A stretch of 34,618 bases of DNA, taken from Verrucomicrobiota bacterium (lineage in GTDB: Bacteria > Verrucomicrobiota > Verrucomicrobiia > Opitutales > Opitutaceae). The stretch spans positions 1 to 34,618 of the forward strand of contig JANYDX010000137.1 in NCBI GenBank assembly GCA_025363395.1. The letters run 5' to 3'. The stretch's first letter is position 1. The number at the start of each line of letters is the position of its first letter. Under the pieces are notes generated by a model. It was not told the DNA's origin and searched no databases. It worked only from the letters and a program-made list of their open reading frames with translations. This document shows positions 6,161 through 31,406 of this stretch, piece by piece. The translations under genes and the position numbers were made by a program.

Positions 6161-7327
6161 ATGAACCCCTCACCCGCCACCACCGCTGCCGCTAGCCTAG
6201 ATGCCGTCCAAAAATGGGTCGAGGACCGGAACTACAAAGGATACGATCCGGGTGACGGACTAACCAGCTACCTGCGGTCACTCACATTCGGGGATCTCTT
6301 CGCCGAACGGTTGCTCCAACAGGCCATTTGGAAGTCGCCGATCAATCTGCGCCCGATTCTTGGCGTGAAGCCGTTGGATTCCACCAAAGGGCGCGGTTTC
6401 ATGGCATGGGGCTATTTGTTCCGCTACCGCATTGACCGGAACGTCGAGTACCTCAACAAGGCGATCGCGTGCCTGGAGTGGCTTGATCAAAACCGGGAAC
6501 ACGGCCAGATCGGCTGCTGCTGGGGAAACCATTTTGATTTCACCACGCGTTCCGGCCGGATGAAAGCCCACACACCCACCATCGTTTGGTCAGGCTTGAT
6601 CGGGCAAGCGGTGCTGGAAGCGTACGAACAAACCCTCGATCCCAAGTGGCTCGCGATGGCGGAGGGTATTTGCACTTGGATCCTCGCCCTGCCCAAGGAA
6701 ATCACGCGAGAAGGCAACTGCCTCAGCTATACCGCGGTGTTTCAGAATTCGGTCCACAATTCCAACCTGCTTGGCGCTGCCGTCCTGGCCCGCACTTGGA
6801 AACACACCCGCAACCCGGCGTATCTCGAAGTCGCGCGGGAAGCGGCCACCTACACTTGCGCGCGTCAGCGGCCGGATGGCTCGTGGTGGTACGGTGAAAA
6901 TCCCAAATACCAGTGGATCGATAATTTCCACACGGCCTACAATCTGGACAGCCTCAAACGCTACGTCGATTACACCGGCGACAGTTCATTCCGCGTGAAT
7001 ATCGATCATGGTTACGACTATTTCAAAAAGGTATTTTTTGATCCGTCGGGTTGCCCCCGGTATTACCACAATCGCCGGAATCCAATCGATATTCAATGTG
7101 CCGCGCAGGCCATCGACACCTTCAGCTTTTTTTCGGAGCAGGACTCGGATGCGCTGCGCCAGGCTTCGCGGGTCGCTGAATGGACCATTGAAAACATGCA
7201 GGATCCGAAGGGATTTTTCTACTACCGAAAATATCCCCTGCTGACGGCCAAGACTCCTTACTTCCACTGGGGACAGGGAACGATGTTCAAGGCCCTGGCT
7301 CATTTACTGTACAAGCTTTCCCGTTAA
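6161..7327 (+). CDS. Alpha/alpha-toroid (six-hairpin glycosidase-like) EPS-associated protein of unknown activity
   Basis: 388 aa, no signal peptide. Repeated helical-hairpin pattern (GRGFMAWGYLFRYRIDRNVEYLNKAIACLEWLDQN..., LGAAVLARTWKHTRNPAYLEVAREAATYTCARQRPDGSWWYGENPKYQWIDNFHTAYNLDSLKRYVDYTGD). Confidence 0.6.
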   Translation: MNPSPATTAAASLDAVQKWVEDRNYKGYDPGDGLTSYLRSLTFGDLFAERLLQQAIWKSPINLRPILGVKPLDSTKGRGFMAWGYLFRYRIDRNVEYLNKAIACLEWLDQNREHGQIGCCWGNHFDFTTRSGRMKAHTPTIVWSGLIGQAVLEAYEQTLDPKWLAMAEGICTWILALPKEITREGNCLSYTAVFQNSVHNSNLLGAAVLARTWKHTRNPAYLEVAREAATYTCARQRPDGSWWYGENPKYQWIDNFHTAYNLDSLKRYVDYTGDSSFRVNIDHGYDYFKKVFFDPSGCPRYYHNRRNPIDIQCAAQAIDTFSFFSEQDSDALRQASRVAEWTIENMQDPKGFFYYRKYPLLTAKTPYFHWGQGTMFKALAHLLYKLSR

Positions 7328-7345: not shown

Positions 7346-8239
7346 ATGCCCGCCTCGACCCTCACCTACGCCCTCATCACGCCAGCGCGCAACGAGGAAG
7401 CGTTGATTGAACAGACCATCCAGTCGATGCTGGCGCAGACTCTTCGCCCGATGAAGTGGCTGATTGTCAGCGATGGTTCAACAGACCACACCGACGCCAT
7501 CGTCAGCCGGTATGCCGCAGATCATCCCTGGATCGACTTGCTCCGCTTGCCCGAACGGCGCGACCGTCAGTTCGCGGCCAAAGCACGCGCCTTCAACACG
7601 GCCTATGAAAAAATCCGCGGGCTCGATTTCGATCTGATCGGCAATCTCGACGCGGACATCACCTTCGAGCCCGACTACTATGAATTCCTCGTGGGGAAAT
7701 TCGCCGGAGCGCCCAAACTGGGCGTGACCGGAACCCCGTTTGTGGAAGACACGCAGGACCACACCTACGCGCACCGGTTCGCCGACCTTCGCCATGTGTC
7801 GGGCGCCTGCCAGTTGTTCCGAAGAACCTGCTTTGAAGAGGTCGGAGGATATGTTCCGATCAAAGGCGGCGCGATCGACTGGGTCGCGGTCACGACCGCC
7901 AGAATGAAAGGCTGGGAAACCCGCACCTTCGTTGAGAAAACCTGCTTTCATCATCGAAAGATTGGCACCGCCAACGACAGCTCTTGGATGGTCTATTTTC
8001 ACTATGGGAAAAAAGCCTACTACGTGGGCGGACATCCCGCGTGGGCCTTGATGCGGGGTTTCTTCACGATGCGACGCAAGCCCTGGATCATCGGCGGTTT
8101 CCTGTTTCAATGGGGTTATTTCTGGTCATTCGTCACCCGAATGCCACGGGCGGTCAGCCCTGAACTGATGGCCTTTCATCGGGGTGAACAAATGTCCCGT
8201 CTGAAACGGCTGGTCGGATCCGCCTCCGCCGGGGACTGA
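7346..8239 (+). CDS. GT2-family glycosyltransferase
   Basis: YALITPARNEEALIEQTIQSMLAQTLRPMKWLIVSDGSTDHTDAIVSRYA; DADITFEPDYYEFL (DxD-like). Confidence 0.92.
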   Translation: MPASTLTYALITPARNEEALIEQTIQSMLAQTLRPMKWLIVSDGSTDHTDAIVSRYAADHPWIDLLRLPERRDRQFAAKARAFNTAYEKIRGLDFDLIGNLDADITFEPDYYEFLVGKFAGAPKLGVTGTPFVEDTQDHTYAHRFADLRHVSGACQLFRRTCFEEVGGYVPIKGGAIDWVAVTTARMKGWETRTFVEKTCFHHRKIGTANDSSWMVYFHYGKKAYYVGGHPAWALMRGFFTMRRKPWIIGGFLFQWGYFWSFVTRMPRAVSPELMAFHRGEQMSRLKRLVGSASAGD

Positions 8240-8243
8240 GCGA

Positions 8244-8975
8244 ATGCTGATTATAAACGCAGACGATTTAGGCCGTTCGCCTGCGGCCACCGACAACACG
8301 CTCGCCTGTCACGCGCACCACCGACTCAGTTCAACCAGCGCGATGGTTTACATGGTTGATTCGGAGCGGGGCGCCGAAAGGGCGCTGGCCTCGGGCATCG
8401 ACGTGGGATTCCACCTCAATCTCTCGGAAAGTTTCACCGGTCCGGCGGTTCCCTCCCGACTGCGCGAGAGTCACGAACGCATCCGCCGCTTCCTAAAATC
8501 CAGCAAGTACGCCCTACTGCTCTTCCATCCCTTTCTACGGGCGCAGTTCCGCGAAGTGTTCCACATCCAGCACGAAGAGTTCCTGCGACTTTATCGACGA
8601 CCGCCTTCACACTTGGACGGCCATCAACACCTGCATCTCTCAAGCAATGTCCTGCTGGAGGGTCTGCTTCCCCCCGGCACCAAGGTGCGGCGGAGTTTTT
8701 CATTTCAAGCCGGAGAAAAAAGCCTGGTTAACCGCTGGTATCGGGGTGCGGTGGATCGCCGACTCGCCCGGCAGCACCAACTGACCGATCATTTTTTCGC
8801 CCTCTCGCAGAATATGCGTCCGGATCGTCTGACCCGAATAATGACTCTCGCACAAAGTTCGAATGTAGAACTCATGACTCACCCTGAAATTCCCGTCGAA
8901 CATGCGTACCTGATGAGCGACGAGTTCCAACGCGCTTTGTCTCCCGTACGCCTCGCAGGTTATGATGCCCTCTGA
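8244..8975 (+). CDS. YdjC/ChbG-family carbohydrate deacetylase
   Basis: MLIINADDLGRSPAATDNTL, GIDVGFHLNLSE, HLDGHQHLHL, MTHPE are canonical YdjC-like metal-site motifs. Confidence 0.88.
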   Translation: MLIINADDLGRSPAATDNTLACHAHHRLSSTSAMVYMVDSERGAERALASGIDVGFHLNLSESFTGPAVPSRLRESHERIRRFLKSSKYALLLFHPFLRAQFREVFHIQHEEFLRLYRRPPSHLDGHQHLHLSSNVLLEGLLPPGTKVRRSFSFQAGEKSLVNRWYRGAVDRRLARQHQLTDHFFALSQNMRPDRLTRIMTLAQSSNVELMTHPEIPVEHAYLMSDEFQRALSPVRLAGYDAL

Positions 8976-9912
8976 TTCCAACCAGCCCAGCCCGCCGGAG
9001 CAGGGCAAGACCACCACCTCCTGTGCCCTCCCGCACATCAGCGTTGCCGCATGCACTTTCAAACGACCCGAATTACTGGAAAAACTCTTGCATGAACTGG
9101 CCCGCCAAAAAACTGGCGGAAAGTTCACTTTTTCGATCATCATTTCCGACAACGACAGCAAACAATCCGCGCGCCCGGTCGTGGAAAAATTCGCCGCGGC
9201 ATCCCCGGTTAAAACGATCTATTGCGCCGAACCCCGCTCCAACATTGCGCTGGCGCGAAACAAGGCGTTGGAACACGCGAAGGGCGACTATGTCGCCTTC
9301 ATCGACGACGACGAGTTCCCCCTGCCCGACTGGTTGGCCGAAATGCTCAAGGCCTGCGAAAATTATCAAGCAGCCGGTACGCTGGGACCGGTCCGTCCCC
9401 ACTTTGATCTGACCCCGCCAAAATGGATTATCCAAGGCCGCTTTTGCGAACGGCCCGAGCCGGCGACGGGCAAAATCATGGACTGGGAGGAAAGCCGGAC
9501 TGGCAATCTTCTGTTTCGCCGCAGCCTCCTCGCGGGGCTGCTCCAGCCGTTTGATCCCCAATTCGGCAACGGGGGCGAGGACAAGGATTTTTTCATGCGC
9601 ATGACCCAGCAGGGTCATGTCTTCCGCTGGTGCAATGAAGGAGTCGTCTACGAAGCGGTTCCTCCCTCGCGCTTGACCCGGAGTTATATGCTTAAGCGCG
9701 CGCTGTTGCGGGGAAAAAACATCCTCAAACACCCCACCAACCGCGCGCGCATGCTGGCGACCTCATTTGTCGCGACCCCCGTTTATTGTCTGGTGCTCCT
9801 GCCTGCCCTGATCGCGGGGCATCACCACTTCATGAAATATTGCATCAAGCTTTGCGACCATGTGGGTCGATTGCTCGCTTTTGTCGGCATCAATCCGGTC
9901 GATGAACGTTGA
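8962..9912 (+). CDS. GT2-family glycosyltransferase
   Basis: ISVAACTFKRPELLEKLLHELARQ...FSIIISDNDSKQS...GDYVAFIDDDEFPLPDWLAEML...GGEDKDFFMRMTQQGH. Overlaps the upstream gene by 14 bp. Confidence 0.93.
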   Translation: MMPSDSNQPSPPEQGKTTTSCALPHISVAACTFKRPELLEKLLHELARQKTGGKFTFSIIISDNDSKQSARPVVEKFAAASPVKTIYCAEPRSNIALARNKALEHAKGDYVAFIDDDEFPLPDWLAEMLKACENYQAAGTLGPVRPHFDLTPPKWIIQGRFCERPEPATGKIMDWEESRTGNLLFRRSLLAGLLQPFDPQFGNGGEDKDFFMRMTQQGHVFRWCNEGVVYEAVPPSRLTRSYMLKRALLRGKNILKHPTNRARMLATSFVATPVYCLVLLPALIAGHHHFMKYCIKLCDHVGRLLAFVGINPVDER

Positions 9913-11143
9913 ATCTGCCACGCCCGTCCACCCCGCGGCGAAACCACTGGTCTGCATTGGTTTTTCCGAGGCGCTGTCAGCGCCCGAAGTGGCGTGGAGC
10001 CTTCTCGCCGCCGGCTGCGAGGTGGTTGGATTTGCCCGCCGCGGACGGCGTTCCGCCTTGCGCCATAGTTCTCAGGTGAAGGTGCATGAAATCACCCCGC
10101 CGGAAAAGGACAGCACTGCCGCCCTGGCTGACCTGCAGCAGTTGCTGAAAACTTTGCCATCATCGGCCGGCCGGAGAGTGCTGCTTTTTCCGCTCGATGA
10201 TACCGCGGTGTGGTTGTGCAACCAAGTGCCTCCCGCTCCGGGCTGGTCACTCGTTGGACCGTCGGGCGCCAACACCCACCTGGCGCTCAGCAAAACAATT
10301 CAAGTGCGGGCCGCCGAGGCAGCGGGATTGCACGTTCCGACAACCACGATCACCCGGGTGCCGGCGGAAGTGATGGCCTTCAGACCCAACCTGCCGCTCG
10401 TGCTCCGTCCATCCGATGCCGTTCTGTTTGAAAACGGCCGGTTGAAAAAAGGGCGTAATTGGATTTGCGCCACTGAAGCCGAATTGCAGCAAGCCGTCGA
10501 CGCGTGGGCCGGATCCTGCCCGCTCATGGTCCAACCTTTTATTGACGGCGTCGGCGAAGGGGTGTTCGGCCTCGCGACTGCGGAAGGCGTCATCGGTTGG
10601 AGCGCGCACCGCCGGCTGCGCATGATGAATCCACATGGATCCGGCTCCAGTGCTTGCATTTCCCAGCCCGTTCCCGAAGAAGTCAAAGTTCCGATCGAGC
10701 GCTTGATCAAGCAGACGGGTTGGCGCGGATTGTTCATGGTCGAATTGCTCCAGGATCGCTCCGGAAACCACTGGTTCGTCGAACTGAACGGGCGCCCGTG
10801 GGGGAGCATGGCGCTCGCCCGCCGGCAGGGAATGGAGTATCCCGCGTGGGCGGTGCATCAAATATTGCACCCGGGCCAGCCCGTCGGAGTGCCGGAACCG
10901 TCTACAACTCCCCTCGTCTGCCGGAACGCGGGGCGGGAGATCATGCATCTGTTTTTTGTCCTGCGCGGTCCCAAATCCACCGCCTTGAAAAAGAAATGGC
11001 CCTCCGTCTGGCAAACCCTTTTCGAACTGCTGCGAGTGCGCCGTGGAGATTCGCTCTACAACTGGCAGCGCGGTGACTTGAAGGTTTTTTTCCGCGACAC
11101 CTGGTACACGCTCCGGAGCAATCTTCGGAAATCGAACGATTGA
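9902..11143 (+). CDS. ATP-grasp superfamily ligase (carboxylate-amine ligase-like)
   Basis: Start chosen at ATG 9902 (MNVESATPVHP), overlapping the preceding stop. ATP-grasp core: PLMVQPFIDGVGEGVFGLATAEGVIGWSAHRRLRMMNPHGSGSS...GWRGLFMVELLQDRSGNHWFVELNGRPWGSMALA. Confidence 0.85.
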   Translation: MNVESATPVHPAAKPLVCIGFSEALSAPEVAWSLLAAGCEVVGFARRGRRSALRHSSQVKVHEITPPEKDSTAALADLQQLLKTLPSSAGRRVLLFPLDDTAVWLCNQVPPAPGWSLVGPSGANTHLALSKTIQVRAAEAAGLHVPTTTITRVPAEVMAFRPNLPLVLRPSDAVLFENGRLKKGRNWICATEAELQQAVDAWAGSCPLMVQPFIDGVGEGVFGLATAEGVIGWSAHRRLRMMNPHGSGSSACISQPVPEEVKVPIERLIKQTGWRGLFMVELLQDRSGNHWFVELNGRPWGSMALARRQGMEYPAWAVHQILHPGQPVGVPEPSTTPLVCRNAGREIMHLFFVLRGPKSTALKKKWPSVWQTLFELLRVRRGDSLYNWQRGDLKVFFRDTWYTLRSNLRKSND

Positions 11144-11153
11144 TCCGCCCACG

Positions 11154-11891
11154 ATGATCGCCGCCGCCTGCCACATTCACTCAACCTGGTCCTATGACGG
11201 GAAATGGACCCTGCCTGTCCTCGCGGCCGAATTCAGCCGGCGGGGTTATCGGGTCCTGCTGACCACCGAGCATGATCTCGGTTTTACCGAAGCGCGAAGA
11301 CTGGAACATCGTGCGGCCTGCGCGGCCGCCAGCACTTCCGAGATCCTGGTGGTGTCGGGCATTGAGTACAGCGACGCGGCAAACCGGATCCATGTACTGG
11401 TGTGGGGACCGGTGCCCTTCGTCGGGGAAAGGGTGCCCACGACAGAAATGCTGAAGGCCGTTAAAGCCGCCAACGGCGTGGCCGTCCTGGCTCATCCCTC
11501 GAGAAAAGAGGCGTGGAAATTTTTCGAGTCCTCGTGGACCGAACATCTGCTGGGCATCGAAATCTGGAATCGCAAGACGGATGGCTGGGCGCCCAGCCGA
11601 ACCGCGTCGGAATTGATTAAAAATTCCCCGGCAATCCCGTTCGTCGGCATGGATTTTCACGACCGAAATCAATTTTTTCCGCTCACCATGGCCTTGGACC
11701 TTACCGGAATTATCGACGAAGAATCCGTGCTCGCGTGCTTGCGTGACCGCCGGTGCCGCGCGTTGGCCTTGAATCGGCCGGTTGAAGCAACCGCCCAAGG
11801 CTGGTTCAATGTCGCTCTGCGTTCAGTCGAACGCTGTCGACGCAGCGCCGCGGTCGTTTACCGCGCCGTGCGCAAACGCAGAACTTCCTGA
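11154..11891 (+). CDS. PHP-domain metallohydrolase
   Basis: Motifs HIHSTWSYDG, LLTTEHD, SGIEYS, VLAHPSRKEAW, GMDFHDRNQF. Confidence 0.82.
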   Translation: MIAAACHIHSTWSYDGKWTLPVLAAEFSRRGYRVLLTTEHDLGFTEARRLEHRAACAAASTSEILVVSGIEYSDAANRIHVLVWGPVPFVGERVPTTEMLKAVKAANGVAVLAHPSRKEAWKFFESSWTEHLLGIEIWNRKTDGWAPSRTASELIKNSPAIPFVGMDFHDRNQFFPLTMALDLTGIIDEESVLACLRDRRCRALALNRPVEATAQGWFNVALRSVERCRRSAAVVYRAVRKRRTS

Positions 11892-11978: not shown

Positions 11979-12935
11979 ATGGAAATAACCACCCACCAAA
12001 TCAGCGTTAAAGGCCGCCAGGTGTCCGTCCCCTGCCTCCAACTCAACGACACGCGGGTGGTTGCGTCGGGGAAATTTTTGCGAGTGGCCTTCATTCACGA
12101 CGAAGAATGGCTGGAACCGGCCGCACTGGCCGATCCCCTGCCCTTGATCGAATCGCTGAAAAAGCATCATTTAAAAGCCGATATTTTTTCCTTCAGCCAG
12201 CGACCGCCCGACGTGGTTCCTCGCTATCAGTATCCCATGGAGTGGGACAATGCCGCCATGATTGCCATTTCCACCTATAAGGATTGGTGGGAAGGGTTGC
12301 CGCAGGTGGCGCGCCGAAATGTCCGGATCACTGAAAAGAAAGGGCTCACCTTTCGCGTGACGCCATTTGATGACGAACTGGTCCGGGGCATCGTCACGAT
12401 TTATAACGAAGCGCCGGTTCGTTTGGGCAAGAGTTTCTGGCACTATGGAAAGGACTTCGAGACCGTTAAGCGGGAAAATTCCACGTATCTTGATCGCAGC
12501 ACTTTTATCGGAGCCTATTGTGAAGAATCACTTATCGGTTTTATCAAACTGGTGACGGTTGATCGGATCGGCAGCATGATGCAAATTCTCTCGATGATCA
12601 AACATCAGGACAAGCGCACAACCAACGGGCTCATCGCGAAGGCGGTGGAGGTCTGTGCGACCCAAGGCCTGGGCTACCTGATGTATTGCAAGTACGTTTA
12701 CGGCTCCAACGAATCCAGCCTCCTGACCGATTTCAAAAAGCGCAATGGCTTTGAAAGAATCAAATTTCCACGCTACTATGTTCCATTGACGGCCCGGGGC
12801 GGCTTGGCGCTCAAAATTCGGGCGCACCATGGACTGCGCGGAATGGTGCCTGCACGTTTGTTCAATTTCGCTTTGCATCTGCGCACGAAATACTACAGCC
12901 TCAAAGAACAGCGTGCTACCAACACGGCTGAGTGA
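11979..12935 (+). CDS. GNAT-like acyltransferase, EPS-associated
   Basis: 318 aa. GAYCEESLIGFIKLVTVDRIGSMMQILSMIKHQDKRTTNGLIAKAVEVCATQGLGYLMYCKYVYG...FKKRNGFERIKFPRYYVPL resembles a GNAT/FemX-type core; N-terminal ~100 aa unassigned. Confidence 0.6.
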   Translation: MEITTHQISVKGRQVSVPCLQLNDTRVVASGKFLRVAFIHDEEWLEPAALADPLPLIESLKKHHLKADIFSFSQRPPDVVPRYQYPMEWDNAAMIAISTYKDWWEGLPQVARRNVRITEKKGLTFRVTPFDDELVRGIVTIYNEAPVRLGKSFWHYGKDFETVKRENSTYLDRSTFIGAYCEESLIGFIKLVTVDRIGSMMQILSMIKHQDKRTTNGLIAKAVEVCATQGLGYLMYCKYVYGSNESSLLTDFKKRNGFERIKFPRYYVPLTARGGLALKIRAHHGLRGMVPARLFNFALHLRTKYYSLKEQRATNTAE

Positions 12936-12976: not shown

Positions 12977-13051
12977 GCGGGTGTAGCTCAACGCTAGAGT
13001 GCTTGGTTTCCAATCAGGAGATGGAGTGTTCAATTCCTCCCGCCCGCTCCA
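12977..13051 (+). tRNA. tRNA-Gly (anticodon UCC) with encoded CCA; atypical, possibly a pseudo-tRNA
   Basis: GCGGGTG TA GCTC AACGCTA GAGT G CTTGG TTTCCAA TCAGG AGAT GGAGTG TTCAATT CCTCC CGCCCGC T CCA. Full 7-bp acceptor, 4-bp D stem, 5-bp anticodon stem with wobbles, T-loop TTCAATT. Defects: D-loop GG replaced by GC, one extra T in the 5' T-stem strand. Confidence 0.7.
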
Positions 13052-13122: not shown

Positions 13123-14910
13123 ATGCCCGGCATCGCTGGAATCATTCATCACCCTGCAGGCCCTGACCGACCGGATGAAGTTTCACGCATGGTGCAGTCA
13201 ATGGTGGGAGCTGACGCCAATTCGAGTGGTCAACTCGCGGTCGCGCAGAGCGGAGTTCACGCCGGATGGGTGGCCCGTTCCGGTTCCTTCGCCGATCGGA
13301 TGCCGGTTTGGAATACCACCCGGACGATCTGCCTGATCTTCACCGGCGAGGATTTTCCCGCCGCCAGTAGTGGACTTGCGGGGGTAGTTGCTTCGTTGGT
13401 CGACCGCTACGAGAAACACGGAGCGAAATTTTTCGCACAACTGAACGGCTGGTTCAGCGGGCTCCTGATCGATCTGCGGACCCACCGGGCCATCCTTTTT
13501 AACGACCGCTACGGATTAAACCGGCTTTATTATCATGAATCGCAGGAGGGATTTTATTTCGGCTCCGAGGCCAAATCGCTGCTCGCGGTTCTGCCCTCAC
13601 TTCGGCAAATCGACCAACGGGGTCTGGCCGAAGTATTCTCGGCCGGTTGCGTGCTGCAGAATCGCTCGATTTTTTCCGGCATCTTCCTCCTCCCTCCCGG
13701 CTCGCAGTGGATATTTCACGCCGATGGACGGATCGACAAGACCCGGTATTTTGATCCGTCTGCGTGGGAACAACAGGAGAAATTGGATCCCGCCGGCTAT
13801 ACGGAACAATTGATCGAGGTGTTTGGGCGCATTACCCCCCGTTACTTGAGCGGCCCGGAGCCCGTTGCCATGTCGCTCACTGGAGGACTGGACAGCCGCA
13901 TGCTGCTGGCTTGGTCGGGAGCGTCGCCCCGCACGCTGCCCTGCTATTCTTTCTCCGGGCCCTATCGCGATTGTGCCGATGTCACAATCGCACGCAGGCT
14001 CGCCGAGGTTGCGCAACAGCTTCACTCGACTCTCCGGATCGAGAAAGATTTTTTCCAGGACTTCCCCTCTCTGGCCGCGGAAACAGTTCGAATCTCGGAC
14101 GGAAGCATGGACGTGTCCGGCGCGATTGAACTTTATGTGAACCGGAAGGCCCGACAGATCGCCCCGGTTCGACTAACCGGGAACTACGGGTCGGAAATTC
14201 TCCGCTCGAACGTCGCCTTTCAGCCTCGCCGGCTCGATCCGTCTTCCTTCACGCCCGAGTTCAACGAATTGTTGCAGCAGGCGGCCGACACGTATCGACA
14301 GGAAGCAGCCGGTCATCGGCTCTCCTTCATCGCGTTCAAGCAGGTTCCCTGGCACCACTACCCCCGCCATTCCATCGAGCGCTCCCAAGTCACCCCGCGA
14401 GCCCCTTTCCTCGACAATGAACTGGTGGCACTGGCCTACCGCGCACCCACCCGGCTTGCCACGTCCCCCCAGCCTCTTCTGGAGCTGATCGCCGCCGGCA
14501 ATCCGAGACTGGAATCCGTCCCCACTGATCGCATGCTCCAGCGCGGGAAACCCTCCTTGGTCGCAAAGCTCCGCCAACAATGGCAGGAATTCACCGCAAA
14601 AGCCGAATACGCTTACGACTACGGCATGCCGCGCCGGCTGGTTCAGGCTGACCACATTCTTTCCCGCCTTCACTTGGAACGTCTGTTCCTGGGCCGTCAT
14701 AAGTTCTACCATTATCGCATCTGGTATCAAAACCAGTTAAGCGACTACCTGAGAACCCGAATTTCCACCGGTTCTCCCAGCTGCTATCGCGACGGCGCAG
14801 TGGCGCAAATGATCAACGAGCACCTCGGCGGCCGCTCAAATCGCACTTTGGAATTGCATCGCATGCTCACCGTTCAGCTCATTGACCAGAGTCTAATCCG
14901 ACCACGATGA
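13123..14910 (+). CDS. Asparagine-synthetase-like ATP-dependent ligase lacking the N-terminal glutaminase cysteine
   Basis: Start set at ATG 13123 (MPGIAGIIHHPAG), the position equivalent to MCGI in AsnB. PPi-loop SLTGGLDSRMLLAWSG retained; NDRYGLNRLYYHESQEGFYFGSEAKSLL is typical AsnB. The track ORF start at 13003 lies inside the tRNA and is not used. Confidence 0.88.
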   Translation: MPGIAGIIHHPAGPDRPDEVSRMVQSMVGADANSSGQLAVAQSGVHAGWVARSGSFADRMPVWNTTRTICLIFTGEDFPAASSGLAGVVASLVDRYEKHGAKFFAQLNGWFSGLLIDLRTHRAILFNDRYGLNRLYYHESQEGFYFGSEAKSLLAVLPSLRQIDQRGLAEVFSAGCVLQNRSIFSGIFLLPPGSQWIFHADGRIDKTRYFDPSAWEQQEKLDPAGYTEQLIEVFGRITPRYLSGPEPVAMSLTGGLDSRMLLAWSGASPRTLPCYSFSGPYRDCADVTIARRLAEVAQQLHSTLRIEKDFFQDFPSLAAETVRISDGSMDVSGAIELYVNRKARQIAPVRLTGNYGSEILRSNVAFQPRRLDPSSFTPEFNELLQQAADTYRQEAAGHRLSFIAFKQVPWHHYPRHSIERSQVTPRAPFLDNELVALAYRAPTRLATSPQPLLELIAAGNPRLESVPTDRMLQRGKPSLVAKLRQQWQEFTAKAEYAYDYGMPRRLVQADHILSRLHLERLFLGRHKFYHYRIWYQNQLSDYLRTRISTGSPSCYRDGAVAQMINEHLGGRSNRTLELHRMLTVQLIDQSLIRPR

Positions 14911-16310
14911 CACGGCTGATTCTTTTGATCTTCCTCGCGGGGGTTGCCTGGCTGATCCGGCGGGACACGGCACGACGGACCGGTGTTTCCGGTGCAGTGT
15001 GGATTCCCACTCTTTGGGTCGGTATTCTCGCTTCGCGGCCACTGTCTTCCTGGATCGGAATCGGGGGTGGCGAAGGGGGCGATGATTACTCAATCGAAGG
15101 CTCTCCGACTGATCGGTACTTCTTCATCGTCATGATCTTCTCCGCCATCATGGTGTTGTCGCGGCGCAGGCTTAACTGGCCGAGGTTGATCGCATCGAAC
15201 TGGGCGATTGTTATCTTTTATGCCTTCTTTTTTGTGAGCGTCCTTTGGGCGGATTCGTCAATTGTATCTTTCAAAAGATGGTTCAAGGACCTCGGAAACA
15301 TCTTTGTGGCTCTGGTCATTTTAACGGAATTGAATCCTCTGCAGGCCTTCCGGGCCGTCTTTGTCCGGTGTGCGTACCTGCTGATCCCGCTTTCCATTAT
15401 TTTCATCCGCTATTTTCCGGATCTGGGCCGGCGCTATAACATTCACTCTGGCGAGATGGAGGCGACGGGGGTCACGTTTCAAAAAAATTCACTCGGCGCG
15501 CTGGTCATGGTTTGCGGCATGATTATTATCTGGGATTGGTTTGAACGCGAAAAAGTGAGGAAGAAAGGAAGCGAAAGCTGGATCGAAAAGTACCTGCCGC
15601 TCATTATTTTTGCGATGGGAGGCTGGCTTCTCTTAATCAGCGACAGCAAGACATCGATCTTATGCCTGGGTGTGGGCACTCTGATCATTGCCGGTACGCG
15701 CCTGCCATTTGTCCGAAAATATGTGGGGTCGCTTGGCCGCTACGCGCTCGTGTTCATCATTGTCGGTTTCCTCCTCGATTCGATGTTTGGAATCAAAGAA
15801 TGGATTCTGGCCAGCATGGGGCGAGACATGACTTTTACCGGCCGAACCGATGTCTGGCGCGTGCTGCTCGATCTCAACACGGACCCGCTTTTCGGCACAG
15901 GTTTCTGCAGCTTTTGGTCGGATATGTCGTATCGTTCGCAGCTGCCCTACTGGGTGGCGTATTCAGCGCACAATGGTTATTTAGAAACCTATCTTGATGG
16001 AGGATACCTCGGTGTGACCTTCCTTGCCATAATGTTAATTGCCGTCGCCGGAAAAATAAACCGTCAGCTATCGGTCGCGGGTAACTATGCGGTCGTCCGT
16101 TTCGCGGTTCTTCTGGTCACCATCCTGGGAGATTTCTCCGAATCCCATTTTATTCGGATGAGTCCCCTCTGGTTTATCTTTCTGCTTTCTGCACTGGATG
16201 TGCCCCTGCCGGATACGGTACCCTCCGCCCAAAGCAGAACGGAAGAACTCCCCGGGGAGCCGGCGGCCTACGAAACCTCGAAACTCAATCCAAAGGGCGC
16301 TCAAACATGA
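14907..16310 (+). CDS. O-antigen ligase/polymerase (Wzy/WaaL-like) membrane protein
   Basis: 467 aa, multi-TM. YNIHSGEMEATGVTFQKNSLGALVMVCGMIIIWDW; FTGRTDVWRVLLDLNTDPLFGTGFCSFW; AHNGYLETYLDGGYLGV. ATGA overlap with upstream stop. Confidence 0.88.
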   Translation: MTRLILLIFLAGVAWLIRRDTARRTGVSGAVWIPTLWVGILASRPLSSWIGIGGGEGGDDYSIEGSPTDRYFFIVMIFSAIMVLSRRRLNWPRLIASNWAIVIFYAFFFVSVLWADSSIVSFKRWFKDLGNIFVALVILTELNPLQAFRAVFVRCAYLLIPLSIIFIRYFPDLGRRYNIHSGEMEATGVTFQKNSLGALVMVCGMIIIWDWFEREKVRKKGSESWIEKYLPLIIFAMGGWLLLISDSKTSILCLGVGTLIIAGTRLPFVRKYVGSLGRYALVFIIVGFLLDSMFGIKEWILASMGRDMTFTGRTDVWRVLLDLNTDPLFGTGFCSFWSDMSYRSQLPYWVAYSAHNGYLETYLDGGYLGVTFLAIMLIAVAGKINRQLSVAGNYAVVRFAVLLVTILGDFSESHFIRMSPLWFIFLLSALDVPLPDTVPSAQSRTEELPGEPAAYETSKLNPKGAQT

Positions 16311-17113: not shown

Positions 17114-17326
17114 AAGGTCAAGTCACGGACGTGAGCTCGTATAATTCCGGTTTTGAAGGCCAACATATTTTCTCCCCGCCCCAAGTCGACAGCCCAGAGG
17201 AGCTGCTCAAGGAATCGATCTAATCAGGAATGCCTGCCGTGTTCCGCCCGGGTGCTGCCAGCACAACTATCGCATTCCTTATCCGATCAGATTCATCATT
17301 CGATCGACGCGAACACGCCTATTGTC

Positions 17327-18124
17327 ATGGACCAAAACTTTTCATCAACCCTGCATCCTTTTGCCACACTGGGTGCGAAAATAAAAAACCGCTCTCAGCG
17401 GATGGCCGCAAAGTTTTTGGGCCGGCGGCCTTTTCAGATGAAAAATGAACGGCCACTGATTTCCTTTACCTTCGACGATTTCCCCCGTTCGGCGCTGCAT
17501 ACCGCCGGGGCTATGTTGGAACAGCAGGGTGCTCGCGGAACCTACTACACATCGCTCGGCCTGATGGGCCAGACCGCACCCACCGGGGAAATGTTTCGCC
17601 GGGAAGATCTGTCAGACGCGCTCGCGCGTGGGCATGAACTCGGATGCCATACCTACGCTCACTGCCATTCCTACACCACCCCTTCCGCAGAATTTGAGCG
17701 TTCGTGTGTGGAAAACCGAGAGGCGATGCACCAACTTGAGCCTGGGGTTAAATTTCAGAGCCTGTCCTATCCAATCAGCTGGCCACGGGTGGACACGAAA
17801 CGCCGGTGCGGTCGTTATTTTTTAGGCTGCCGCGCAGGCGGCCAGACTTTCAACTCGGGGACCGTAGACTTAAACTATCTAAACGCGTTTTTCATTGAGC
17901 AAAGCCGTGACAACGCAGACGCGATCAAACGCATCATTGATGAAAATCAACGTGCGGGCGGCTGGTTGATTTTCGCCACCCACGATGTCTGCGCAAACCC
18001 AACCCGCTTTGGTTGCGAACCAGGGATGTTCGAAGACATCCTCCGCCATTCCGTTACCTCGGGGGCCAGTCTTCTTCCCGTGTCGGCCGCGCTGGCCGCA
18101 ATCGGTGTCGTACCGAAATTGTAG
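17327..18124 (+). CDS. NodB-type polysaccharide deacetylase
   Basis: Start chosen at ATG 17327 (MDQNFSSTLHPF). LISFTFDDFPRSALHTAGAMLEQQGARGTYYTSLGLMG; HELGCHTYAHCHSYTT (H-x3-H); WLIFATHDV. Confidence 0.88.
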   Translation: MDQNFSSTLHPFATLGAKIKNRSQRMAAKFLGRRPFQMKNERPLISFTFDDFPRSALHTAGAMLEQQGARGTYYTSLGLMGQTAPTGEMFRREDLSDALARGHELGCHTYAHCHSYTTPSAEFERSCVENREAMHQLEPGVKFQSLSYPISWPRVDTKRRCGRYFLGCRAGGQTFNSGTVDLNYLNAFFIEQSRDNADAIKRIIDENQRAGGWLIFATHDVCANPTRFGCEPGMFEDILRHSVTSGASLLPVSAALAAIGVVPKL

Positions 18125-30423: not shown

Positions 30424-30543
30424 ATGGCGTCCCGTCCTTGGGCACCGAAAAAGCCGGTGAGCCCGCCCGATTCTGAGATTGGTCCCCTCCCGCCGATCCG
30501 ACGGGCGGATCAACAATTATTCGGCACCCCATGCGCAATTTGA
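30424..30543 (+). CDS. Possible 39-aa small ORF overlapping the exosortase start
   Basis: ATG...TGA encodes MASRPWAPKKPVSPPDSEIGPLPPIRRADQQLFGTPCAI; preceded by an SD-like AGGAA; overlaps the exosortase start by 13 nt. Too short for a coding-statistics call. Confidence 0.3.
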   Translation: MASRPWAPKKPVSPPDSEIGPLPPIRRADQQLFGTPCAI

Positions 30544-31406
30544 CCGTTCCGGCTCTAATTCTGCTGCTCGCAGTCAGTCTGCCACTTTATCAAGTGGGCC
30601 GATTTGCTCTGCAGAGTCATCTCTATTCCCACCTCATCCTGATACCCCTGATCAGTGTCTACTTGCAGTGGTTGAAACGGTCGCATTTTCAGGTTTGGGA
30701 AAGGCCCGCCCCTCGGGCTTGGGTGGTCGCTTTCAGTGCGCTTAGTTTGATTTGCCTGACCGGCTACATCCTGATGCTGAATTCGTCGGAGCCAAGCTCC
30801 CCGCAGGATTTGCTCGCGCTGGAGGTCTATGCCCTGGCGTTTTTCACCGCCGGCTGGGCCTGCCTTTTTCTGGATGCCAGGGTCCTGCCGAGCACCATCT
30901 TCCCCATCGGCTTCCTCTTCCTGATGGCTCCCTTTCCCGTCGTCATCGAGACCGCGCTGGAAAATTTTCTGCAACACGCGTCGGCGGTGGTGGCGCACGG
31001 AATTTTCAGCCTCGTTGGAACGCCTGTGTTGCGAGAAGGAACTTATTTCCATCTTCCCGATTTCAATATGGAGGTCGCCCCCGAATGCAGCGGCATCAAC
31101 TCGACCCTGGTCTTGTTCATCGTCAGTTTGGTGGCTGGTCAGCTTTTTCTGCGGTCTCCGTGGAAGCGTGGAATCCTTGCGCTGGTGGTTCTGCCCATCG
31201 CATTACTCCGAAACGGAGTGCGCATATTTACCATTGGAGAACTGTGCGTGCATGTGGGACCGCACATGATCAACTCATACATTCACCGACACGGCGGTCC
31301 CATTTTTTTTGCCGCATCGCTCGTACCCTTCATCCTGATTTTACTGTCGTTACTCAAATCCGATCGGTCAGCAGCACAGAAAATCAAACCCTCCGTTCCG
31401 TCCTGA
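30531..31406 (+). CDS. Exosortase (archaeosortase/exosortase family)
   Basis: 291 aa, multi-TM. Catalytic Cys in MEVAPECSGINSTLVLFI, Arg in ALLRNGVRIFTIG, His in YIHRHGGPIFFAASL. Subtype not assigned. Confidence 0.93.
   Translation: MRNLTVPALILLLAVSLPLYQVGRFALQSHLYSHLILIPLISVYLQWLKRSHFQVWERPAPRAWVVAFSALSLICLTGYILMLNSSEPSSPQDLLALEVYALAFFTAGWACLFLDARVLPSTIFPIGFLFLMAPFPVVIETALENFLQHASAVVAHGIFSLVGTPVLREGTYFHLPDFNMEVAPECSGINSTLVLFIVSLVAGQLFLRSPWKRGILALVVLPIALLRNGVRIFTIGELCVHVGPHMINSYIHRHGGPIFFAASLVPFILILLSLLKSDRSAAQKIKPSVPS

Follow-up and report, generated by a model that had tools for sequence, protein, structure and literature searches.

What does an asparagine synthetase B (AsnB)-like ligase that has lost its glutaminase nucleophile do in an exopolysaccharide (EPS) locus, and why does a tRNA gene stand 71 nt upstream of it? 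The question is raised by contig JANYDX010000137.1 (assembly GCA_025363395.1) of a Verrucomicrobiota bacterium of the Opitutaceae, of which positions 1 to 34,618, the whole stretch analyzed, are here called the window. The original prediction, which concerned the ligase, missed both the tRNA gene and the aminoacyl-tRNA-transferase-like gene that precedes it; together these point to amino-acid decoration of a polysaccharide. We put at roughly three in four the probability that the cluster carries a dedicated tRNA, itself probably non-translational, which supplies the aminoacyl-tRNA used by a transferase to decorate the polysaccharide. The genes at the center of this reading are the following, where counts out of 20 refer, here and below, to the first 20 related loci, the neighbors of which were compared.

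11979..12935, forward strand: GNAT-fold protein of 318 aa, a probable aminoacyl-tRNA-dependent transferase; in 13/20 loci and in 19/23 with visible flanks
12977..13051, forward strand: tRNA-Gly(TCC) with CCA encoded, G19 lost in the D-loop and a bulged U in the T-stem (ARAGORN; Rfam tRNA, 50.6 bits)
13123..14910, forward strand: Cys-less AsnB-fold protein of 595 aa, a predicted ATP-dependent amide ligase (MPGI family), starting MPGIAGII

Scanning of genome contigs yielded 19 further ligase loci, in records named Verrucomicrobiota, Nitrospirota, Pseudomonadota, Thermodesulfobacteriota (Geobacteraceae, Syntrophorhabdus), Acidobacteriota and Aminicenantes; the EPS locus is conserved and widely transferred. 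In the window the tRNA gene lies 41 nt 3′ of the GNAT gene. The scan of related loci revealed tRNAs in L033 (two copies), L036, L037, L038, L039, L040, L041, L043, L044, L046 and L049, and Rfam, run at permissive thresholds on the seemingly tRNA-less loci, added a single one, in L042, so that 13 of the first 21 loci, the window counted, possess one. A class-wide search then returned five new GNAT-bearing loci; a tRNA adjoins the GNAT gene in three (L097, L098 and L099, which, having been found after the first set, serve as held-out loci), and none does in L100 and L101. The total is 17 tRNAs in 16 loci, and the tRNA stands beside the GNAT gene in all 15 where the latter is visible, the contig of L040 ending before the GNAT position. 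Over the 23 judgeable loci, both genes occur in 15, GNAT without tRNA in four (L047, L048, L100, L101), the ligase with neither in four (L034, L035, L050, G027), and the tRNA alone in none (Fisher p = 0.008). The chance of meeting a tRNA in a random 1.5-kb stretch of this genome is about 1.4%. The pair stays together even at a distance of 1.7-2.5 kb from the ligase, as in L041 and L099, or when encoded on the other strand, as in L049, so that it is the GNAT gene with which the tRNA goes; their order is reversed in L098, where the tRNA comes first. The loci with GNAT but no tRNA may use host tRNAs, which may be the ancestral state. Canonical tRNA-Gly genes (TCC, CCC, GCC) are present elsewhere in the same genome, and the window tRNA is therefore not needed for decoding. 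In the open-licence full-text literature, searches turned up no description of an EPS locus containing a tRNA.

The locus tRNAs are of Gly, Thr, Ala or Ser type, and all 17 are malformed. The main defect depends on the type, with a bulged T-stem in the Thr and Gly types, which constitute one tRNA family, and an anticodon loop of 6 or 8 nt in the Ala and Ser types. Among the Thr/Gly copies, 62% of T-stem cells pair when the stem is drawn unbulged versus 100% when one unpaired base is placed between 52 and 53; the bulged stem shows two compensatory changes, and Infernal independently set the bulged U of the window tRNA as a T-stem insertion. In the canonical tRNAs of the same genome (n = 30) the T-stem is perfect in 29 and carries a single mismatch in one, and the bulged form fits none of them. 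Nine of the 11 Thr/Gly copies have lost the GG at 18-19, the D-loop of the window copy reading AACGCTA. In the Gly types the anticodon TCC comes with a 3-70 pair altered from C-G to G-C, so that anticodon and acceptor have switched together. The acceptor of tRNA-Ala (G3-U70, A73) is found on four tRNAs (L036, L037, L042, L098), whose anticodon loops measure 6, 6, 8 and 6 nt, respectively; the genome's own tRNA-Ala starts GGGGCAGTAGCTC and ends CTGCTCCACCA. The tRNAs of L038 and L097 resemble tRNA-Ser, the variable arm being long and the anticodon loop 8 nt in size, and the Thr-like tRNA of L049, also with an 8-nt loop, is the exception to the rule by type. The synthetases for Ala and Ser (AlaRS and SerRS) ignore the anticodon, whereas those for Gly and Thr (GlyRS and ThrRS) read it; anticodon loops are thus broken mainly where charging would tolerate it. 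Two further arrangements were observed: the dedicated tRNA-Thr of L033 is a tandem pair of near-identical copies (L033:9697-9935), and in two loci (L036:9910-9941, L037:3869-3900) the GNAT coding sequence and the tRNA gene overlap by about 31 nt, mRNA and tRNA sharing these bases.

The isotype of the tRNA follows the transferase. On a transferase tree of 18 rows the isotype requires five changes (the minimum being four) compared with a mean of 10.7 over 200 shuffles, none of which was as low. The Ala/Ser rows split off with support 98/99, and the Thr/Gly group has support 100/99. All Ala/Ser-type transferases lack a five-residue loop that all Thr/Gly types have, and the held-out loci conform (L097 and L098 without it, L099 with it); the tRNA-less L100 and L101 lack it as well. 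On the other trees the isotype does no better than shuffled (ligase 13 vs 13.7, family 2 glycosyltransferase (GT2) 6 vs 7.4, Wzy 10 vs 10.1). L038 (Ser) and L046 (Thr) have almost identical ligases, GT2s and Wzys, and differ in transferase and tRNA, which indicates that the transferase-tRNA pair was swapped as a cassette. Since its tree is independent of isotype, the ligase probably works on another part of the repeat unit or ignores the side chain. An obligate link between ligase and tRNA was rejected, given this absence of co-variation and the occurrence of ligases without a tRNA.

The GNAT-like protein (family A4) carries no Pfam or NCBIfam name and is a member of no sequence family defined there. 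Its AlphaFold2 (AF2) model (predicted local distance difference test, pLDDT, 85.3) has Sbb17/Sba18, MprF/A-PGS and FemX as best PDB matches, and the top 16 matches are all aminoacyl-tRNA-dependent enzymes or domains of these. The best of them, Sbb17, has also been solved with the amino-sugar compound streptothrisamine. According to a review, enzymes of this fold depend on aminoacyl-tRNA, and one of them aminoacylates an amino-sugar intermediate (PMC12945691). The model suggests that the GNAT protein probably uses a charged tRNA as donor, and the tRNA linkage and the isotype co-variation back this indirectly. In the phylum it was found in 1/388 genomes only. At 12684-12692 of the window (GNAT residues 236-238), the invariant Tyr236 is followed by Gly (YG) in all Thr-type transferases and by Cys or Arg in the two Gly-type ones, possibly filling the amino-acid pocket.

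The ligase has lost one half of the AsnB chemistry and kept the other, as seen at these sites:

13126..13128, forward strand: Pro codon CCC replacing the glutaminase Cys codon; Pro is conserved among relatives, which between them use each of the four Pro codons
13870..13902, forward strand: pyrophosphate (PPi) loop MSLTGGLDSRM (Ser251-Arg259 region); S251, T253, G254, G255, D257 and R259 invariant
14179..14199, forward strand: GNYGSEI motif (353-359); Tyr355, Gly356 and Glu358 invariant, like LTGYGADI of beta-lactam synthetase
14692..14703, forward strand: GRHK motif (524-527); Lys527 invariant and aligned with AsnB Lys449

The reading frame is open upstream as far as 13003, but the start at 13123 is correct, since full-length relatives start at the same point. 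The 17 full-length ligases, the window's included, share 44-54% identity with it and an invariant M-P-G, the Pro being written CCC, CCG, CCA or CCT; an MPGI start is present also in L097, L099, L100, L101, G027 and a second paralogue in L048. Relatives in several phyla, at 39-54% identity, thus retain the Pro with differing codons. The Pro at position 2 is therefore a family trait, and the sequencing error that the original prediction had named as its possible undoing is excluded. It is not absolutely required, as the ligase of L038, which adjoins a tRNA-Ser-type cassette, starts MSGL (near 9862), with Ser for Pro, and its close relative in L046 MPGL. The same genome as the window possesses two ordinary AsnB paralogues, MCGL (L002) and MCGI (L003).

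Profile-profile alignment (HHalign) with Escherichia coli AsnB and the MCG(I/L) paralogues (100% probability, 482 columns) reveals that Cys1, Arg49, Asn74 and Asp98 of the glutamine site (AsnB numbering) are all replaced and only Gly75-Glu76 are kept; TGEDFP indeed stands in place of NGEIYN, as first noticed. No Cys or Ser is invariant in residues 1-160 of the 17-member alignment, which rules out a displaced conserved nucleophile. By comparison, none of the 17 departs from the PPi-loop core or from D257, Y355, E358 and K527. The loop, described from the outset as intact, has the form SLTGGxD[S/G]R and not the classical SGGxDS. Within LTGNYGSEI, Tyr355 and Glu358 match Tyr348 and Asp351 of beta-lactam synthetase (LTGYGADI, 345-352) only with a one-residue insertion, and HHalign placed no gap there; to judge from the motif, they may stand for those two residues, of which the Tyr takes the place of AsnB Glu348 in beta-lactam synthetase. 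The AsnB substrate segment is replaced by QVPWHH (407-412), of which Q407, P409, W410, H411 and H412 are invariant.

Pfam recognizes GATase_7 and Asn_synthase in the ligase, the first 90 residues being without a match. It falls far below the cut-off of every NCBIfam AsnB-type family, including those of glutamine-hydrolyzing asparagine synthetase B (TIGR01536/NF006949, 93.9 vs 267.1 bits and 38.4 vs 499 bits). The AF2 model (pLDDT 88.8) shows a complete two-domain AsnB fold, with TsnB9, AsnB and the beta-lactam and carbapenam synthetases as best PDB matches (Foldseek template modeling (TM) score 0.5-0.7); a synthetase-only profile gave no useful alignment against PDB. The PPi loop, the Mg-ligand Asp (D257), the catalytic Lys (K527) and the full-length fold place the protein in the AsnB-fold adenylating superfamily. 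The catalytic roles of these residues are established for the family, and the loss of the glutamine site together with the retention of the adenylation residues therefore indicates a functional amide ligase that adenylates and makes no use of glutamine. Residue conservation and fold thus support the original prediction of a glutaminase-dead, adenylating enzyme comparable in principle to beta-lactam synthetase. Our best reading, from sequence and model, is that it would be an ATP-dependent amide ligase of the EPS locus.

The family is rare: 1/273 genomes of the order, 7/384 of the class and, at E 1e-40, 3/388 of the phylum, one of these (G443) having an ordinary MCGI protein. Plasmid searches with the ligase and GNAT proteins returned only distant AsnB relatives or nothing. 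One orthologue (L096 / G027:C1:339861-341629) is broken by a frameshift near residue 312, in a locus without GNAT or tRNA.

The other conserved genes around the ligase are typical of polysaccharide synthesis:

6161..7327, forward strand: protein like the C-terminus of C5-epimerase, a weak match below the cut-off (Pfam PF06662, E 1e-4); 10/20 loci
7346..8239, forward strand: GT2 of the conserved set; 9/20 loci
8244..8975, forward strand: YdjC-like carbohydrate deacetylase (Pfam YdjC, 105 bits), a possible source of free sugar amine; 7/20 loci
8962..9912, forward strand: GT2 of the conserved set; 13/20 loci
14907..16310, forward strand: O-antigen ligase / Wzy-like polymerase (Pfam Wzy_C), overlapping the ligase stop codon; 18/20 loci
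17153..18124, forward strand: NodB-like polysaccharide deacetylase (Pfam Polysacc_deac_1); 8/20 loci

Other genes of the window include an ATP-grasp-like protein and a PHP-type metallohydrolase (9860-11891), which have no relatives in the other loci and look locus-specific. A FemAB-like protein at 390-1460 (TIGR03019, 141 vs 260 bits) is possibly a second aminoacyl-tRNA-dependent transferase of the cluster. Downstream of the EPS locus, beside a TPR protein, lies an exosortase close to the VPDSG-CTERM-specific XrtC (30531-31406; 245.8 vs 300 bits).

The alternative that survives best, though still unlikely, is that the AsnB-like protein makes a uronamide from an EPS uronic acid with free ammonia, a reaction for which WbpS-type enzymes use glutamine. 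The original prediction had named amidation of a uronic acid as one plausible role, on the strength of a clustered UDP-sugar dehydrogenase. That gene and the C5-epimerase-like gene are indeed in the window, and among the nearest named families is TIGR03108 (XrtA/PEP-CTERM amidotransferase), at 78 bits, which according to PMC7468200 includes WbpS/WbqG, AsnB-like enzymes that, like the window ligase, belong to a surface-polysaccharide locus. The argument from the dehydrogenase is weak: its relatives occur in only 3/20 loci, at 27-28% identity, and it was dropped as a marker of function; more frequent (10/20 loci) is the C5-epimerase-like protein, for which uronic acids are possible substrates. 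Moreover, the TIGR03108 cut-off is 816.9 bits, so that the score reaches a tenth of it, and unlike WbpS/WbqG and TIGR03108 proteins, which are treated as amidotransferases, the window ligase has no glutamine site and a rebuilt acceptor region (QVPWHH). Much less probable is a purely structural role in the EPS machinery, as a scaffold without catalytic activity. The second paralogue in L048 does retain MPGI after losing its PPi loop, but in the 17 aligned ligases the adenylation residues are invariant. This paralogue (L048:12086-13801) reads PLSKDLGIRV for SLTGGLDSRM, also lacks a C-terminal stretch and lies beside an intact copy; by its sequence it is likely a pseudoenzyme.

To return to decoration by a dedicated tRNA, the cassette of a Wzy-type EPS locus would consist of a GNAT-fold, aminoacyl-tRNA-dependent transferase and a tRNA that is chargeable but ill-suited to translation, with the Cys-less ligase adjoining. 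A housekeeping synthetase, the glycyl-tRNA one in the window and that for Thr, Ala or Ser elsewhere, would charge the dedicated tRNA, and the bulged T-stem or wrong-sized anticodon loop would bar it from elongation, that is, from EF-Tu and the ribosome. The transferase would pass the amino acid to an amine of a sugar or of a lipid-linked repeat-unit precursor, an acceptor presumably freed by the YdjC/NodB deacetylases. In that same repeat unit the ligase would add another amide bond, a carboxylate being adenylated and then attacked by an amine (free ammonia is less likely), without hydrolysis of glutamine.

Each component has known counterparts. The ligase resembles beta-lactam and carbapenam synthetases in having an AsnB fold without the glutaminase Cys and, as predicted, carboxylate adenylation, and its YG(S)EI may correspond to the YG(A)DI of beta-lactam synthetase; it differs in its identity of about 14%, its neighbors, its acceptor region QVPWHH and a likely intermolecular amide in an EPS locus. 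The transferase shares the GNAT fold with Sbb17/Sba18 and Orf11 of streptothricin-type antibiotics, which aminoacylate an amino-sugar intermediate from aminoacyl-tRNA (PMC12945691), whereas the window protein is 12-14% identical, lies in a polysaccharide locus and is paired with its own tRNA gene. The tRNA recalls the non-proteinogenic tRNA-Gly of Staphylococcus aureus, in which GG18-19 is replaced and the T-stem altered and which is kept for non-ribosomal amide bonds; the window tRNA shows the same GG18-19 loss, G19 included, and an altered T-stem. The FemX case serves the peptidoglycan bridge, and the portion of the report dealing with these tRNAs describes neither isotype switching with the transferase nor broken anticodon loops (PMC4052509). 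In Porphyromonas gingivalis and Tannerella forsythia, the VimA/Wbp linking sugar is likewise an amino uronic acid bearing Ser/Gly, with an AsnB-like enzyme (WbpS) and EPS/exosortase parallels; the gene set is different, and the relevant part of the report mentions no dedicated tRNA (PMC7468200).

Several points weigh against decoration by a dedicated tRNA. The evidence is computational throughout, drawn from sequence and predicted structure, and many loci are contigs of metagenome-assembled genomes. With its normal anticodon loop of 7 nt and a score exceeding that of two other tRNAs in the genome, the window tRNA could still be reading GGA codons in translation. The transferase is matched by predicted fold, at 12-14% identity and a TM score of about 0.55. 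Four loci have the transferase but no tRNA, and four the ligase but neither; the phylogenetic shuffles leave some relatedness in; and, because the ligase tree does not follow isotype, what joins ligase and transferase in one pathway is their shared locus. There is a slight chance that the GNAT-like protein instead acetylates or otherwise modifies aminoacyl-tRNA in the manner of TacT-type toxins, or is unconnected with the tRNA. It has a weak sequence match to PaiA-type acetyltransferases; its fold is nearest to aminoacyl-tRNA-dependent amide- or ester-forming enzymes, and the gene sits in an EPS context with no toxin-antitoxin arrangement. That the tRNA is an ordinary translational one there by chance is the least probable reading of all, for although tRNA genes are common integration sites and the window copy has a normal anticodon loop and a score within its genome's range, the gene lies inside the cluster, tRNAs in the same place across phyla have 87% mean column identity compared with 72% at best between the window copy and its own genome's tRNAs, the isotype follows the transferase tree, and the Ala and Ser types have wrong-sized anticodon loops.

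Amino acids occur on many bacterial polysaccharides, and to our knowledge the route of their attachment is mostly unknown. It is likely that several phyla share a mobile EPS locus with its own polysaccharide-decorating tRNA (Gly, Thr, Ala or Ser, several with loops unfit to decode) and a matching transferase, the two being exchanged as one cassette so that the sugar coat receives a different amino acid. If true, private tRNAs for surface chemistry would extend beyond Gram-positive cell walls, the tRNA isotype would predict the amino acid on the polymer, and a natural set of tRNAs that are charged yet kept off the ribosome would be available. Annotators would have reason to leave such genes out of translational tRNA counts, and the Cys-less family would be another glutaminase-dead AsnB-fold enzyme, in this case in the context of a sugar polymer.
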